64,000 nucleotides of DNA, from the NCBI RefSeq assembly GCF_017487405.1, contig NZ_CP062222.1, positions 3,853,501 to 3,917,500 of the forward strand, read 5' to 3'. How positions within the stretch are numbered: the stretch's first letter is position 1; the number at the start of each line of letters is the position of its first letter. The notes beneath the pieces were generated by a model. It was given only the letters and a program-made list of their open reading frames with translations, was not told where the DNA came from and did no database searches. The position numbers were made by a program, and so were the translations under genes. The stretch comes from Brevundimonas goettingensis (lineage in GTDB: Bacteria > Pseudomonadota > Alphaproteobacteria > Caulobacterales > Caulobacteraceae). This document shows positions 7,861-17,147 of this stretch, in pieces.

Positions 7861-8063
7861 GTCGCCCTCCGGGGGGATCAGGATTCAATATGTAGTGGCG
7901 AGACCGTCCTCCCGGACCCGCGACCTACCACCAATCGTAAACGAGCGGTTAACAGACGCAAGATGTGCGAATCAGTCCGTCCACAGAAACCAGATGTTGA
8001 ATCGGTGTTATTTGGGGCGCTAAGCGGTTGCGAAGCGCCGCCGTCGGGCGCATTTCCCGGCCC
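7861..8063. promoter_or_regulatory. gcrA promoter region with CtrA-like box and three GANTC sites
   Basis: Divergent intergenic region of 203 bp between gcrA and an ABC permease gene. It contains TAAA-CGAGCGG-TTAA at 7938-7952, one mismatch from the CtrA consensus TTAA-N7-TTAA, and GANTC (CcrM methylation) sites at 7882-7886, 7969-7973 and 7999-8003. CtrA repression of gcrA and methylation-sensitive promoters are established in Caulobacter crescentus; that these sites act here is inference. Confidence 0.6.
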
Positions 8064-8888: not shown

Positions 8889-9647
8889 CTAGACCAGACT
8901 CTTCCAGGCGATCGCATGCACCTCGTCCCGGCCCGGAACGGCGGCGAGCGGCGGCGTCGAAAACAGGCTGGCGATGGCCGGATCGCGCACGTTCAGCCCG
9001 CCGGTGAAGGCGCCGAAGGCCGGCAGGATGATGCGGCTGCCGTCGGTAATGAAGCAGGGCTTGCGCACGCCCCGGCCATAGGCGGCGACGCGGGCGGCGG
9101 GATGCAGGTGTCCCGCCACCTCGCCCGGCTGATCGCCCGGCATGGGCTCGTGCACCAGCCGCAGGGCGCCCAGCGACAAGGTCTCGATGACCGAGCCGGG
9201 CAGGCGGTCGAGGTCGGCGCCTAAAGCTTCCCGGTCGTGATTGCCCTCCAGCCACAGCCAGTCGCGGCCGAAGGCGATCCGCTCCAGGGTCTCGCGGTCG
9301 CTGTCGGCCATGCGCGGGATCGAGCGGCGGTCGTGGAAGCTGTCGCCCAGCAGGACGACGCGGCCGGGGTTCACCTCGGCGATCTCGGCCTCCAGCCGGG
9401 CGAGGGTCGCGGCCGAGTCATAGGGGGGCAGCATCTGGCCGCGCACGGCGAAGGCCGAGCCCTTCTCCAGATGCAGGTCGGCGACGATCAGGACGTCGTG
9501 TTCGACCACATGCATGGCGCCCGAACAGCGCAGCACGCAGCGCTCGCCGGCGATCCGCACCGCCAGCCCGCCGCATCCGCTCCGCCTCGGCGCCAGAACC
9601 ATCCGCCACTCCTCCGATTTGGCCTCAACACGCACAGTCGCCGTCAC
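8889..9647 (-). CDS. pdeM: Ligase-associated DNA damage response endonuclease PdeM
   Basis: Calcineurin-like metallophosphoesterase. Metal-binding motifs in order: DLHLEKGSAF, GDSFHD, EGNHDRE and GHLHPAA. The family (TIGR04123 type) is found beside an ATP-dependent DNA ligase, an MBL-fold exonuclease and a DEXH helicase; the set is thought to act in DNA repair. Its start codon overlaps the stop of the helicase gene by 4 bp, so the two are coupled. Length 252 aa is normal. The other two partners are not in this window. Confidence 0.9.
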   Translation of the reverse strand: MTATVRVEAKSEEWRMVLAPRRSGCGGLAVRIAGERCVLRCSGAMHVVEHDVLIVADLHLEKGSAFAVRGQMLPPYDSAATLARLEAEIAEVNPGRVVLLGDSFHDRRSIPRMADSDRETLERIAFGRDWLWLEGNHDREALGADLDRLPGSVIETLSLGALRLVHEPMPGDQPGEVAGHLHPAARVAAYGRGVRKPCFITDGSRIILPAFGAFTGGLNVRDPAIASLFSTPPLAAVPGRDEVHAIAWKSLV

Positions 9648-12184
9648 GCCGCCCCCTGCAACTCAGGCGGGGCGTCGTCCATGACCTCGGCGATCAGGGC
9701 CTCGGCGGATTCCTTCAGGATCATGTCGGCTGCGTCGCCGCCCCCGACCCGCTCGCGGCCGATGACCACCAGAACCGGAACGGAGAAGGGCGAGGGACGC
9801 TCCAGCGCCTTGGTCCGGATGTGGCCGGAGATGCGGGTCAGCAGCTGACCCAGCCGCGCCACATCCAGCAGGCCCGCCGCCGCATCGGCTCGCGCGGTGC
9901 GCAGCAGCAGATGATCGGGCTGGTGGCGACGCAGGACGTCGTAGATCAGGTCGGTGGAGAAGGTCACCTGACGGCCCGTCTTCTCCTGCCCCGGCTGACG
10001 CCTTTCGATCAGGCCGGAAATGAGGGCGCAGTTGCGGAAGGTGCGCTTCATCATGAAGCTCTCCTCCAGCCAGCTCTCCAGATCGTCGCCCAACATGTCG
10101 GGCTGGAACAGGTCGTCGTAGTCGAGATCGCCGCCGTCGGCGGTCGAAGTCATGGGCTTGATCGACCAGATGGCGATCGAATAGTCCGTACAGACAAAGC
10201 CCAGAGGCCCGACGCCCGCCCGGTCCAGCCGCCGTGTCAGCAGCATGGCCAGGGTGTTGTGGGCGAGGCCGCCCTCGAACGGATAGGCGACCATGAAGTG
10301 GCGGCTGCCGCGCTGGAAGGTCTCGATCAGCATCTGGTCCGCCGTCGGAATGGCCGACTTCGCCTCCTGCAGCTCGAGCCATTCCTGAACGTCGTTGGGC
10401 AGGACACGCCAGTGGTCGCGGTTCTGGACCAGGCTGCGAACCCGATCGGCCAGAGAGGTCGACATGGGGAATTTCGATCCGCCCCAGGACGGGATCTTGG
10501 GGTCCTTGTCCTGGGCATGGGTAACAAGGGCGTCGGTGCCCGAGATGCCCTGGAAGGCCCAGATCTGGCCGGCGAACAGAAAGGTGTCGCCGGGCGTCAG
10601 CTGTTCGAAATACCACTCCTCGGCCTCGCCGACCTTGCGGCCGCCGACCAGCTGTTTGGTCGCCCCGGCGCCCCGGCGCGAGGCGACGCGAACGTTCAGC
10701 GTCCCGGCCGCGACGATGGCGCCGACGTTCATGCGGTGGCGCTGGGCGGTGTCGGCGTTGCGAACCTTCCAGCGGCCCTCGCGGTCCTTCACGATCCGGG
10801 CGAACCGGTCGTAGGAGCGCAGGGCGTAGCCGCCGGTGGCGACGAAATCGACGACCTCCTCGAACTGCTCATAGGGCAGGTCGGCATAGGGGCCGCAGGT
10901 CGTGATCTCGGCGTGCAGGTCGTCCAGCCGGAAGGGCTCGGAACAGGCCAGACCCATGATGTGCTGGGCCAGGGTGTCGAGGGTGCCGATGTGGTGCGGC
11001 TCCCAGTCGAAGGCGTTCTCGGCGACGGCCTCGCGCGCGGCCTGACACTCCAGCATCTCGAAGCGGCTGGCGGGGACCATCAGGGCGCGGGACGGTTCGT
11101 CCAGCCGGTGGTTGGCGCGGCCGATGCGCTGGACGAGGCGGCTGGCCCCCTTGGGCGCGGCCAGCTGGATGACCAGATCGACATCGCCCCAGTCGATGCC
11201 GAGGTCGAGCGTCGAGGTGCAGACCACGGCGCGCAGATCGCCCCGCGCCATCGCCGCCTCGACCTTGCGGCGCTGCTCGGCCGCCAGAGAGCCGTGGTGC
11301 AGGCCGATGGGCAGGTTGTCGTCATTGATCTCCCACAGCTGCTGGAAGACGAACTCCGACTGCCAGCGGGTGTTGACGAAGATCAGGGTCATGCCCGAGC
11401 GCTTGATGGCCTCATAGACCTCGGGAATGGCGTGCTGGCCGGTGTGGCCCGCCCAAGGGACATGGCCCTCGGACACCAGCACATCGACGACCGGCGGGGC
11501 GCCGGGGTCGCCCTTCACCAAGGTCACATCCTGCAGGTCGCCTTCGGGGACGTGAGGCCGTAGCCAATCCCTGATCAGATCGGGATCGTCGATGGTCGCC
11601 GACAGGGCCACCCGCCGCATCGCCGGGGCGAATTGCTGGAGCCGTGCGATCCCCAGCGCCAGCAGGTCGCCGCGCTTGCCGCTCCAGATGGCGTGGACCT
11701 CATCCAGCACGATGCATTTGAGGTCGGCGAAGTATGCGCGCGCGCCATCCCAGGCGCAGAACAGCGCCAGCTGTTCGGGGGTGGTCAGGAGGATGTCGGG
11801 CGGGAAGTCGCGCTGGCGCTGCTTCTTCGACTGTTTGGTGTCGCCGGTGCGGCTCTCGACATGGATGTTCAGCCCGATCTCGCGGATGGGCGTCATCAGG
11901 TTGCGCTCGACGTCGGTGGTCAGGGCCTTGAGCGGCGAGATGTAGAGGGTGTGGATGCCCGAGCCGGGGCCTATGGCCGGTCGCGGGCCGCGCCCGGCCA
12001 GTTCGATCAGGCTGGGCAGAAAGCCCGCCAGGGTCTTGCCGCCGCCGGTGGGAGCGACGAGCAGCGCATGCTGTCCGGCGACGCCCGCCGCGATCATCTC
12101 GGCCTGGTGCCGACGCAGGCTCCAGCCACGCTTCGCGAACCAGTCGGCGAACAGGGGCGGCAATGTCGCGGCGGTCAGCGTCAC
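9644..12184 (-). CDS. Ligase-associated DNA damage response DEXH-box helicase
   Basis: Large superfamily-2 helicase related to Lhr. The Q-motif region and Walker A PTGGGKT (residues 45-51) are followed by the DEVH box (IVLDEVHAIWSGKRGD), motif III (LSATIDDPDL), and the second RecA domain with FVNTRW, STLDLGIDWGDVD and QRIGRANHR. The C-terminal 350 residues contain the Lhr-type winged-helix and beta-barrel region. At 846 aa it has the length of the ligase-associated subgroup (TIGR04121 type) rather than full Lhr (about 1500 aa). It is the first gene of a two-gene unit with pdeM. Its start lies 39 bp from the DUF559 cassette. Confidence 0.92.
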   Translation of the reverse strand: MTLTAATLPPLFADWFAKRGWSLRRHQAEMIAAGVAGQHALLVAPTGGGKTLAGFLPSLIELAGRGPRPAIGPGSGIHTLYISPLKALTTDVERNLMTPIREIGLNIHVESRTGDTKQSKKQRQRDFPPDILLTTPEQLALFCAWDGARAYFADLKCIVLDEVHAIWSGKRGDLLALGIARLQQFAPAMRRVALSATIDDPDLIRDWLRPHVPEGDLQDVTLVKGDPGAPPVVDVLVSEGHVPWAGHTGQHAIPEVYEAIKRSGMTLIFVNTRWQSEFVFQQLWEINDDNLPIGLHHGSLAAEQRRKVEAAMARGDLRAVVCTSTLDLGIDWGDVDLVIQLAAPKGASRLVQRIGRANHRLDEPSRALMVPASRFEMLECQAAREAVAENAFDWEPHHIGTLDTLAQHIMGLACSEPFRLDDLHAEITTCGPYADLPYEQFEEVVDFVATGGYALRSYDRFARIVKDREGRWKVRNADTAQRHRMNVGAIVAAGTLNVRVASRRGAGATKQLVGGRKVGEAEEWYFEQLTPGDTFLFAGQIWAFQGISGTDALVTHAQDKDPKIPSWGGSKFPMSTSLADRVRSLVQNRDHWRVLPNDVQEWLELQEAKSAIPTADQMLIETFQRGSRHFMVAYPFEGGLAHNTLAMLLTRRLDRAGVGPLGFVCTDYSIAIWSIKPMTSTADGGDLDYDDLFQPDMLGDDLESWLEESFMMKRTFRNCALISGLIERRQPGQEKTGRQVTFSTDLIYDVLRRHQPDHLLLRTARADAAAGLLDVARLGQLLTRISGHIRTKALERPSPFSVPVLVVIGRERVGGGDAADMILKESAEALIAEVMDDAPPELQGAA

Positions 12185-12223
12185 CCGGGACCTATAGCAT
12201 GTTCCCGTTCCGTTTCACTTGGA

Positions 12224-12287
12224 ATATCCTCACCACGCGTAGCGTGGGGAGGGGGACCGCCCGCAGGGCGGTGGAGGGGGTTCTTTG
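12224..12287 (+). repeat. Two-hairpin repeat, left copy of the DUF559 cassette
   Basis: About 62 bp, running from ATATCCTCACC through GGGGAGGGGGACC to GGAGGGGGTTCTTTG. It contains two small hairpins, CCACGC-gta-GCGTGG and CCGCCC-gca-GGGCGG. The inverted partner lies at 12656-12725. The inner edge contains GGAGGGGG (12273-12280), placed 4 nt before the TTG start codon of the nuclease gene, so the repeat appears to provide the ribosome-binding site. Confidence 0.85.
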
Positions 12288-12650
12288 CCGAAGCCAGACG
12301 CCGTCACCTATCATCGCGCGGGCGATCTCCGCCGCAGTCTGACGCCGCCCGAGGCGCGGCTTTGGATTTGCCTGAAGAACGGCGGGCTGGCCGGGCTGAA
12401 GTTTCGCCGCCAGCGGCCGGAGGGGCCGTACATTCTCGACTTCTACTGCGTGGCCGCGAAGCTCGCCGTCGAGGTCGATGGCGCAGTGCACGATCAGCCT
12501 GACCAGATCGAACACGACCGGCGGCGGACAGCATGGCTGGCAAGGCAGGGAATAGAAGTCATCCGGTTCCAGGCCTTGTCGATCCGGGACAATCTGGATG
12601 GGGTTCTGGTCGCGATCCGGGAGGCGGCGGAGGCGCGTCTTCGACGGTAA
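12285..12650 (+). CDS. DUF559 family endonuclease-like protein (Vsr fold)
   Basis: Small protein (121 aa) of the DUF559 family, which shares the PD-(D/E)XK-like fold of the Vsr mismatch endonuclease. Candidate active-site residues are E23 (TPPEARLW), D52 (YILDFYC), E63 and D65 (AVEVDGAVH), H69 and D78; the C-terminal pattern QGIEVIRF is family-typical. The substrate is unknown. The start must be TTG 12285, because there is no in-frame ATG in the conserved N-terminal part. The gene is enclosed tightly: its start lies at the inner edge of one repeat and its stop is 5 bp before the inverted partner repeat. It is not coupled to either neighbour, which suggests a mobile or domesticated cassette. 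Confidence 0.85.
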   Translation: MPKPDAVTYHRAGDLRRSLTPPEARLWICLKNGGLAGLKFRRQRPEGPYILDFYCVAAKLAVEVDGAVHDQPDQIEHDRRRTAWLARQGIEVIRFQALSIRDNLDGVLVAIREAAEARLRR

Positions 12651-12655
12651 GGAAG

Positions 12656-12725
12656 CAAGAACCCCCTCCACCACCCGCCAAGAGGCGGGCGGTCCCCCTC
12701 CCCAAGCTGCGCTTGGTGAGGATAT
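12656..12725 (-). repeat. Two-hairpin repeat, right copy of the DUF559 cassette
   Basis: Inverted relative to the left copy and about 70 bp long. Its inner edge is CAAGAACCCCCTCCACC and its outer edge GGTGAGGATAT. The hairpins are CCCGCC-aaga-GGCGGG and CCAAGC-tgc-GCTTGG: different stem bases from the left copy, but still paired, while the linker GGTCCCCCTCCCC is unchanged. The outer edge touches the stop codon (12725-12727) of the 69-aa gene on the minus strand. Confidence 0.85.
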
Positions 12726-12934
12726 CAGTTCGGCTTGTCGGGGGCCTCGGCCTCGAGCCAGGCGATGCGGCGGTCCATGTCGGCGACGACTTCTTGGAGG
12801 CGGGCCTTTTCGGAAGCCATGTCGACGGGCGTGCCGTCTTCGTAGCTGATCTGGGCCCCCTTCTCGATCAGGTCGAGGCGGAAGAGGGCGGTGACGCGCT
12901 GGGCCTTGAAGCGTTCGAGTTCGCTGTCACTCAT
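12725..12934 (-). CDS. Small hypothetical protein (69 aa) coupled to the RidA-like gene
   Basis: Not recognised. A hydrophilic 69-residue protein beginning MSDSELERFKAQRV with a helical, charged sequence; the second half (ASEKARLQEVVADMDRRIAWL) could form a short coiled coil, reminiscent of SlyX-like proteins but without a clear match. Its ATG overlaps the stop of the upstream RidA-like gene (ATGA), so the two are probably translated together. No membrane segment, signal peptide or Cys pair is present. The stop codon lies at the edge of the DUF559-cassette repeat. Confidence 0.7.
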   Translation of the reverse strand: MSDSELERFKAQRVTALFRLDLIEKGAQISYEDGTPVDMASEKARLQEVVADMDRRIAWLEAEAPDKPN

Positions 12935-13275
12935 CACTTCGCCGCCGTCGCCACGATCTCGACGAGGTAGTCCGGCGAGGCCAGTTTCGCTTCCGAGGTG
13001 GCGCGGGCGGGCGGGTTGGCTGTATCGACCCAGGCGTCCCAGACGCTGTTCATGGCGGCGAAGTCGGCGATGTCGGCCAGCCAGATGGTCGCCATCAGGA
13101 TCTTCGACTTGTCCGATCCGGCGAGGCCCAGCAGACGTTCGATCTCGGACAGGCAGGTCTTCGTCTGGGCGACGACGTCCTCGCCGGGCTCGCCGACCTG
13201 ACCGGCGAGATAGATGGTGTCGCCGTGGATCACGGCCTCGCTCATGCGGGCGCCGGGTTCGAGACGGGTGATCAT
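12934..13275 (-). CDS. RidA (YjgF/YER057c) family protein
   Basis: Member of the Rid family, which includes enamine/imine deaminases that destroy reactive intermediates of PLP enzymes. The C-terminal family signature is present (PPARATSEAKLASPDYLVEI) and keeps the arginine corresponding to E. coli RidA Arg105. The position of E. coli Glu120 appears to be valine (VEIVATA), so classic RidA activity is uncertain and it may belong to another Rid subgroup. I chose ATG 13275 (MITRLEPGARMSEAV, 113 aa) because the upstream extension has no family similarity. It is followed by an overlapping 69-aa gene. Confidence 0.85.
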   Translation of the reverse strand: MITRLEPGARMSEAVIHGDTIYLAGQVGEPGEDVVAQTKTCLSEIERLLGLAGSDKSKILMATIWLADIADFAAMNSVWDAWVDTANPPARATSEAKLASPDYLVEIVATAAK

Positions 13276-13333: not shown

Positions 13334-13377
13334 CCCCTCCACCCCTTCGGGGTCCCCCTCCCCATTTCATGGGGAGG
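13334..13377 (-). repeat. Two-hairpin repeat, solo third copy
   Basis: A shorter relative of the DUF559-cassette repeats: CCCCTCCACC, a tight hairpin CCC-ttc-GGG, the conserved linker GGTCCCCCTCCCC and a second hairpin CCCC-atttcat-GGGG. No nuclease gene is attached. Its outer end lies 4 nt after the stop codon of the M20 amidohydrolase gene, matching the stop-adjacent position of the right cassette repeat. Confidence 0.75.
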
Positions 13378-13381
13378 AAAC

Positions 13382-16528: not shown

Positions 16529-16975
16529 ATGGACAGTTCGACACGCATCGAAAACCGCATCGGGGTGCAGGCCACCTCGGACACCATCTGGAGCCTGGTC
16601 GGCGATCTGGCGACCTGGAGCCAGTGGAACCCGATCGAGACGGGGGCCGAGGGCCGCATCGGCTATGGCGGCTCCATCACCCTGACCGAAGCCATTCCGG
16701 GCATGCCCGAGCGGCAGGTGGTGGGGAAGGTCGGCGACTGGCGGCCCTACGCCCAGCTGATCTGGCACGAGCGGCGCGGCTGGCAGTTCAACGCCATGCG
16801 CTATTTCGAGATCGAGGAACTGGTCCCCGGCAACTGCATCGTCGCCAACGGCGTCTGGTTCGGCGGCTTCCGCGGCGAGTTTTTCCACGACAAGCACCGC
16901 AAGGCGATCAAGGACGCCTACATCCAGATCGGCGAGGCCCTGAAGGCGGCGGCTGAGGCGATCGAGGCGGGCTGA
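16529..16975 (+). CDS. SRPBCC (START-like) domain protein
   Basis: A 148-aa cytoplasmic protein with the SRPBCC ligand-binding fold, polyketide cyclase/dehydrase type. The N-terminal strand and helix (RIENRIGVQATSDTIWSLV) and the segment LATWSQWNPIE are characteristic. The C-terminal long helix (KHRKAIKDAYIQIGEALK) closes the cavity. The ligand is unknown. It is 42 bp after the MFS gene and may be co-transcribed. The 3' flank holds an inverted-repeat element shared with the converging tadC gene. Confidence 0.85.
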   Translation: MDSSTRIENRIGVQATSDTIWSLVGDLATWSQWNPIETGAEGRIGYGGSITLTEAIPGMPERQVVGKVGDWRPYAQLIWHERRGWQFNAMRYFEIEELVPGNCIVANGVWFGGFRGEFFHDKHRKAIKDAYIQIGEALKAAAEAIEAG

Positions 16976-16999
16976 GTTTTCACCGCTCATCCCTCCTTA

Positions 17000-17127
17000 C
17001 ACCGCTCATCCCGACGAAAGCCGGGATCCAGATCCAGACAGTGCGTGTGCCGCAGGGATACCGACGGCGCGAAACCTCAAACATCGCATGTGAATCTGGA
17101 TCCCGGCCTTCGCCGGGATGAGCGGTG
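17000..17127. repeat. 128-bp MITE-like element with 34-bp terminal inverted repeats
   Basis: The terminal repeats begin CACCGCTCATCCC at each end and run 34 bp, matching at 32 of 34 positions; each holds its own hairpin (CCGGC-gaa-GGCCGG type). About 60 bp of unrelated sequence lies between. No reading frame or transposase is present. A partial outer copy (CACCGCTCATCCC) is at 16980-16992. The element lies between the converging SRPBCC and tadC genes. No clear target duplication was seen. Confidence 0.8.
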
Positions 17128-17147
17128 AATGAGTTGAGTAGAGCCGC

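Follow-up and report, generated by a model that had tools for sequence, protein, structure and literature searches.

A DUF559 nuclease gene enclosed by inverted two-hairpin repeats in Brevundimonas goettingensis: a probable REPtron-like mobile cassette

The locus and its repeats

The window analyzed here is a 64,000-nucleotide stretch (G000:C1:3853501-3917500) of the genome of Brevundimonas goettingensis (G000), which comprises 3.98 Mb in one contig. Between a gene for an Lhr-like helicase and a small gene whose stop codon adjoins it, the window carries a cassette in which a DUF559 nuclease gene is enclosed by inverted repeats of two hairpins each (Table 1). This enclosure had been proposed in an initial annotation of the DNA, and the arms, linker and hairpins are all present at the coordinates of Table 1, as are the stem pairs quoted in that annotation; the TTG start proposed for the gene is likewise borne out by the open reading frame. 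The arms match one another as inverted copies over 41 nt (12224-12264 with 12685-12725; 93% identity) and over a further 20 nt (12266-12285 with 12657-12676; 95% identity). Their shared linker, GGTCCCCCTCCCC, lies at 12246-12258 on the reverse strand and at 12691-12703 on the forward strand, and it recurs at 13351-13363 (forward strand) in a solo copy of the repeat. When folded as single-stranded DNA, each arm forms two hairpins (z-scores of -4.7 and -3.9), and none of 200 shuffles was as stable. An Rfam search returned one chance-level match, to a microRNA family, with an E-value of 0.24 that is far under the family's cut-off.

Table 1. Features of the cassette and its surroundings (window coordinates).
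Feature	Position	Strand	Remarks
Empty site in the window	8016..8047		G038 has a type-A inverted pair (L440) here; its ends and some of its interior are similar to the window cassette
Lhr-like helicase gene (lhr)	9644..12184	-	Left neighbor; anchor for finding the empty site
Whole cassette	12220..12725		About 506 bp; missing at the orthologous G038 site (L177 positions 1188-1203); edges known to about 10 bp
Type-A repeat, upstream copy	12224..12285	-	Tail hairpin 12228-12252, linker, head hairpin 12256-12272, head GGTGGAGGGGG
DUF559 (PF04480) nuclease gene	12285..12650	+	121 aa, TTG start; Vsr/EDxHD-homing-endonuclease fold (AlphaFold2 and structure comparison)
Type-A repeat, downstream inverted copy	12657..12725	+	Head, head hairpin 12670-12693, GGTCCCCCTCCCC, tail hairpin 12697-12721
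Small 69-aa gene	12725..12934	-	Right neighbor; stop codon abuts the cassette
Solo type-A repeat	13335..13379	+	Also missing at the orthologous place in G038

The encoded protein matches PF04480 with an E-value of 7e-30, and its closest solved fold, besides the DUF559 structure itself, is that of the EDxHD homing endonuclease I-Bth0305I. Five residues (E23, D52, E63, D65 and H69), some of which are presumably catalytic, are invariant across 25 DUF559 members, and the proteins of the family are conserved, with a median dN/dS of 0.13 over 46 non-independent pairs. The motif GGAGGGGG, situated at 12273-12280 and 4 nt 5' of the TTG, is plausible here as the repeat-borne ribosome-binding site that had been suggested, but the arrangement is not general, as L001 has its start codon about 70 nt within its repeat.

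All three DUF559 matches in G000 are enclosed by inverted two-hairpin repeats. Specifically, the GGTCCCCCTCCCC repeat encloses both L001 and the window gene, and L002 is enclosed by another repeat with the form CCTCTCC-hairpin-GGAGAGG. The linker has 23 exact copies in the genome and 37 copies when one mismatch is allowed, versus five for the reversed pattern; a covariance model finds 27 type-A copies, against the 23 exact linker matches. Two repeat families, A and C, are both found in G000, so that a single genome may hold several families, and L001 and L003, which share one clade and one repeat family, occupy unrelated loci of one genome.

Repeat-enclosed nuclease genes in other genomes

Enclosure was scored as the best local alignment of two flanks, about 330 bp upstream of the domain and, in reverse complement, about 360 bp downstream, with a cut-off score of at least 40; the window arms score 81. 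In 61 genomes of the genus, 130 DUF559 domains were scored, and 96 of them have arms; the 130 are mostly the better-scoring of those listed among 219 matches (about a dozen listed ones, at contig ends or low in the ranking, were left out, and L047 was too short). In named genomes, 57 of 79 domains have arms, and an initial scoring there had covered 78 of 80 loci (L120 and L138 being dropped for their short flanks). Near-copies shared by the two sets were dropped only when identical over the core plus 150 bp on either side. The named set was gathered with a profile built from a narrower protein alignment and is biased to type-B-like proteins, and a phylum-wide Pfam sample was therefore added; DUF559 is present in 98 of its 249 genomes, and arms are found in 15 of the 30 best-scoring loci. 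Under the threshold lie 34 of the 130 domains from the genus and 22 of the 79 from named genomes, some of them with a one-sided repeat pair (for example L080, L084, L085 and L090). By record title, the armed loci of the named set belong to Alpha-, Beta- and Gammaproteobacteria, an NC10 bacterium (L125) and Planctomycetes (L111 and L135). With about eight or more repeat families and three phyla by record title, the arrangement is wider in scope than the initial annotation had seen.

At control pseudo-gene positions within the DUF559 loci, an arm score of at least 40 was reached in 8 of 6357 and 21 of 12,862 cases, the positions overlapping one another. GIY-YIG genes had been picked as a negative control, and 24 of 30 proved to be enclosed by a different repeat; ParE genes were substituted, and none of 30 from the same genus sample is enclosed by arms. 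Because of the GIY-YIG result, the arrangement is not unique to DUF559. The inverted repeat enclosing these small GIY-YIG genes (L310-L339; in G000, L314 at G000:C1:3032114-3032335) is of the TTCCGCTCATCCCCGCGAAGGCGGGGACCCAG type. Within the window, an inverted pair of the GIY-YIG-type repeat is seen at about 16966-17140, and G038 has a type-A pair at the same intergenic place.

The median length of the DUF559 cassettes is 496 bp, and the downstream arm overlaps the end of the open reading frame in 92 of 154. Several of the C-terminal tails appear by eye to be translated repeat, for example PSPLAGEGG and PLPLPMGEG (L045, L056 and L048).

By pattern, the arms were sorted into about eight or more families (labeled A, B, B2, C, D, D2, E, F, G and H). 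On a maximum-likelihood tree of 154 cassette proteins (96 from the genus, 57 from named genomes and one, L064, from a viral contig), the family labels require 21 changes, compared with a mean of 77 when shuffled, and none of 200 shuffles was as low; the labels themselves come from patterns hand-written after the arms had been seen, with three of the 154 cassettes unlabeled and some C and H labels doubtful. On this tree, many of whose forks are poorly supported, two other groups fall within the A cassettes: those of family G, and the family-C cassette of G000 along with its nearest relatives. This nesting suggests that repeat families diverge along with their enzymes. Type-B cassettes are found with their repeats in either polarity.

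The hairpin structure of the repeats is under selection. Three hairpins were examined within certain length classes, namely both of those of type A (43 and 66 distinct variable segments) and the first of type B (108 segments). The fraction of paired positions is 0.86, 0.83 and 0.84, respectively, and it falls to 0.68, 0.67 and 0.61 when 3' halves are exchanged between copies, with none of 1000 exchanges reaching the observed value at any of the three hairpin positions. The covariation of stems perceived in the initial annotation is thus confirmed, in that pairing is destroyed by the swaps.

Empty sites, repeat pairs and copy number

The lhr gene has a match at an E-value of 1e-100 or lower in 58 of the 61 genomes of the genus, and those of G038, a close relative, are 97-98% identical to the window lhr. 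In G038, the region upstream of lhr (as far as window position 12219) is joined directly to the small gene that abuts the cassette, and the cassette is absent; this is an empty site in a relative, of the kind that the initial annotation had proposed to look for. The solo repeat to the right of the cassette is likewise absent at that place in G038, and the reverse case is seen at the window's own empty site (Table 1), where a type-A inverted pair is present in G038. When the 23 exact copies in G000 were compared with the fetched loci of G038, five were orthologous, three were absent (two belonging to the cassette and one solo) and 15 lay outside the comparable stretches. In three filled/empty comparisons, with boundaries fuzzy by about 10 bp, no target-site duplication was recognized.

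Among relatives with a split lhr match, inserts are found at about codons 200-224 of lhr in 18 of 20 stretches (one had none and one gave no result), and by eye at least six of these are type A and nine type B. This part of lhr (L400-L418) is a hot spot of repeat insertion at which the family varies by genome, and the window lhr is without any insert.

Head-to-head pairs are a second form in which the repeats occur. Across the loci examined, there are 52 distinct type-A pairs with 18-69 nt between the heads, six of which include a cassette arm, and 43 of the 52 combine, by eye, one CCACC-type end with one CCGTC-type end. The inner ends of the window cassette are matched by three independent pairs, for which the shuffled 99.9th percentile is 13/20: L424 matches at 18/20, L016 at 14/20 and 15/20 (its two ends), and L440 at 14/20 at one end, its other end matching AAGGAAGCAAGAACCCCCTCC. 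More broadly, 19 of 104 interior ends match cassette ends at 13/18 or better, compared with 0.5% when shuffled; without the six self-matching, cassette-adjoining pairs, the count is 13 of 98. Some of the solo pairs carry likely remnants of cassette ends, as expected of internally deleted copies.

The initial annotation had proposed testing whether repeat copy number depends on the presence of DUF559. The outcome is only in part favorable, with a strong link across the order but no significant one within the genus. Among 160 genomes of the order, all at least 90% complete, the repeat is present in 56 of 64 with an A-like gene (called at an E-value of 1e-33 or lower) and in 35 of 96 without, for an odds ratio of 12 (p = 7e-11), shared ancestry being uncorrected. 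Outside the family to which the genus belongs, it is present in 31 of 39 with the gene and 31 of 88 without (odds ratio 7, p = 6e-6), and the median number of copies, with at most about 39 counted per genome, is four with the gene versus zero without (p = 1e-7); ancestry is again uncorrected in both comparisons. Within the genus, the 42 genomes with an A-superclade gene (at least 120 bits with model A5) have a median of 28.5 copies and the 19 without have 21, so that no significant dependence on the matching gene was found among the 61 genomes (p = 0.16, and p = 0.36 in those at least 90% complete). A weak correlation is seen in the genus between copies and the total number of DUF559 genes (rho 0.35, p 0.006, and 0.32, p 0.02). 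Four genomes of the genus are without a DUF559 match, namely G024, G041, G013 and G025. Of these, G041 (98% complete) has 27 copies of the repeat, G013 and G025, both less complete, have 10 and 21, and G024 has neither match nor repeat. The overall distribution of gene and repeat is consistent with gain and loss of the element and persistence of its repeats.

Interpretation and relation to known systems

The gene and its repeats are almost certainly linked as a mobile unit, and the window probably holds a minimal REPtron-like mobile cassette in which a nuclease of the Vsr/homing-endonuclease fold takes the place of RAYT. The observed basis is the linkage itself, its specificity relative to controls, the constraint on the hairpins, the co-inheritance of family and clade, the presence and absence of cassette and solo repeats alike, and the likely end remnants. 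On the best reading of these data, the class of cassettes is large, with a separate cognate repeat family for every nuclease lineage. That the nuclease is itself the agent acting on the repeat is a putative role that we favor with reasonable confidence. Under such a scheme, the enzyme would recognize the folded head and tail hairpins of its own family, exposed as lagging-strand single-stranded DNA or as cruciforms, and nick or cut at the repeat boundary, after which the repeat-bounded segment might be copied to a new place by repair or replication. Repeats would stay behind after loss of the gene, and solo repeats and head-to-head pairs would be the non-autonomous relatives of the cassette, as REPs and REPINs are to RAYTs.

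The likeness to RAYTs and REP elements, with a Vsr-fold nuclease in place of the transposase, was drawn in the initial annotation and is supported, most of the tests proposed there having come out in its favor. RAYT (TnpA-REP)/REP/REPIN "REPtrons" likewise consist of a small nuclease gene flanked by inverted short hairpin repeats, with numerous solo copies and inverted doublets across the genome and with each enzyme lineage paired with a repeat family (PMC8266576, PMC3116915, PMC3733652). In contrast to REPtrons, the enzyme here is a PD-(D/E)xK protein of DUF559, by Pfam and by fold, rather than an HUH (Y1) tyrosine transposase, and the repeat is built of two hairpins with a CCCCTC-type head, its consensus, drawn from 21 copies, being free of a GTAG tag. 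Insertion sequences and MITEs form comparable pairs, in which an autonomous element with inverted ends is accompanied by shorter, internally deleted copies. The DUF559 cassettes share this organization but have no known transposase fold, their arms are covarying folded hairpins, and no target duplication was recognized.

An alternative is that the repeats are moved by a RAYT, an IS transposase or recombination, and that the nuclease genes are passengers, captured between copies or inserted into pairs within repeat-rich intergenic DNA that tolerates insertions. The abundance of repeats in G041, which has no DUF559 match, and the nonsignificant copy-number effect in the genus would both be consistent with this, as would the report that REPs are insertion targets of IS elements (PMC1525189). 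Passengers would not be expected to show the concordance of nuclease clade with repeat family, the cassette-end-like sequence within some solo pairs or the strong order-wide link between repeat and gene, and ParE genes, which are also small, are never enclosed in the sample; we regard the passenger explanation as unlikely. Somewhat less likely still is a homing-type process, in which the nuclease makes double-strand breaks in uninterrupted repeat pairs and repair copies the gene in, the solo pairs then being mainly empty targets rather than deletion derivatives. The resemblance to I-Bth0305I points in this direction, pairs with 18-69 nt between their heads do look like uninterrupted targets, and one paper places a DUF559-containing gene in the EDxHD homing endonuclease family (PMC9403480). 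Unlike EDxHD homing endonucleases and Vsr, however, the DUF559 nuclease is carried by inverted repeats of its own at unrelated sites of one genome. A homing endonuclease gene is expected to keep to one conserved target site, whereas cassettes of a single family (L001 and L003) sit at unrelated loci and the orthologous site of the window cassette is free of any repeat. Because of this repeat-free site, the window cassette did not arise there by invading a pair already in place, unless such a pair has since been lost.

A regulatory role is highly improbable. Under it, the hairpins would stop or attenuate transcription of a nuclease kept at a low level, or would shield its mRNA, and mobility would be incidental. 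Stable hairpins do stand at the gene ends, and the frequent overlap of the downstream arm with the end of the reading frame would suit such a function; the repeats nevertheless have no T-run terminator, and the sole terminator-like match between 12100 and 13450 lies inside the gene and does not exceed shuffles. Solo pairs, insertions and deletions, and copies inside lhr would also be left unexplained. The preferred reading, a mobile nuclease cassette, would give DUF559, a family without an assigned function, a likely role, and with a matched nuclease for each family, the origin of hairpin repeats becomes directly testable.

The CCCCTCATCC..CTTCTCCC, CCCTCTCCC and CCCCTCCACC types of hairpin repeat are common in proteobacterial genomes, and the CCCCTCCACC type is present in 60 of the 61 genomes of the genus. 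Within the open-access papers searched, no enzyme for these repeats was found, nor was a paper linking DUF559 to repeats. By term search, the main text of a 2025 survey of REPs is without the words nuclease, transposase and RAYT (PMC12306157). CGTC-tagged REPs are described as abundant palindromic repeats, found mostly in alpha-proteobacteria and reported without a dedicated transposase (PMC3733652). The DUF559 repeats differ from these in sequence, which rules out their being CGTC REPs, while the GIY-YIG-flanking repeat resembles the description. Two nuclease folds sharing one arrangement would suggest a general bacterial route to repeat families. It is a tentative proposal, about which we remain somewhat doubtful, that small stand-alone nucleases of several unrelated folds generally give rise to REP elements. 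The HUH fold of RAYTs is the known case, and DUF559 and GIY-YIG proteins would each propagate hairpin repeats of their own as self-mobilizing cassettes; if true, many orphan bacterial repeats, in large classes that include the CGTC type, would gain the enzymes they have lacked.

An alternative reading is also offered for VsrA (CCNA_02930) of Caulobacter, a DUF559 protein from the same bacterial order. In the passages on VsrA, the protein is reported to be responsible for the SOS response in cells without the ScmA methyltransferase and is interpreted in terms of mismatch repair, with flanking repeats going unmentioned there (PMC12907096). In Caulobacter vibrioides DSM 9893, two DUF559 genes lie 2.3 kb apart (L099 positions 9991-12966), the second having near-perfect inverted D-type arms with a score of 114, and these two genes may bear on the SOS-linked VsrA of C. 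crescentus. Finally, twin, near-identical DUF559 cassettes about 0.8-2.8 kb apart are seen in a genome of the genus (L298), in Mesorhizobium (L146) and in a member of the Pirellulaceae (L135), which suggests local duplication.
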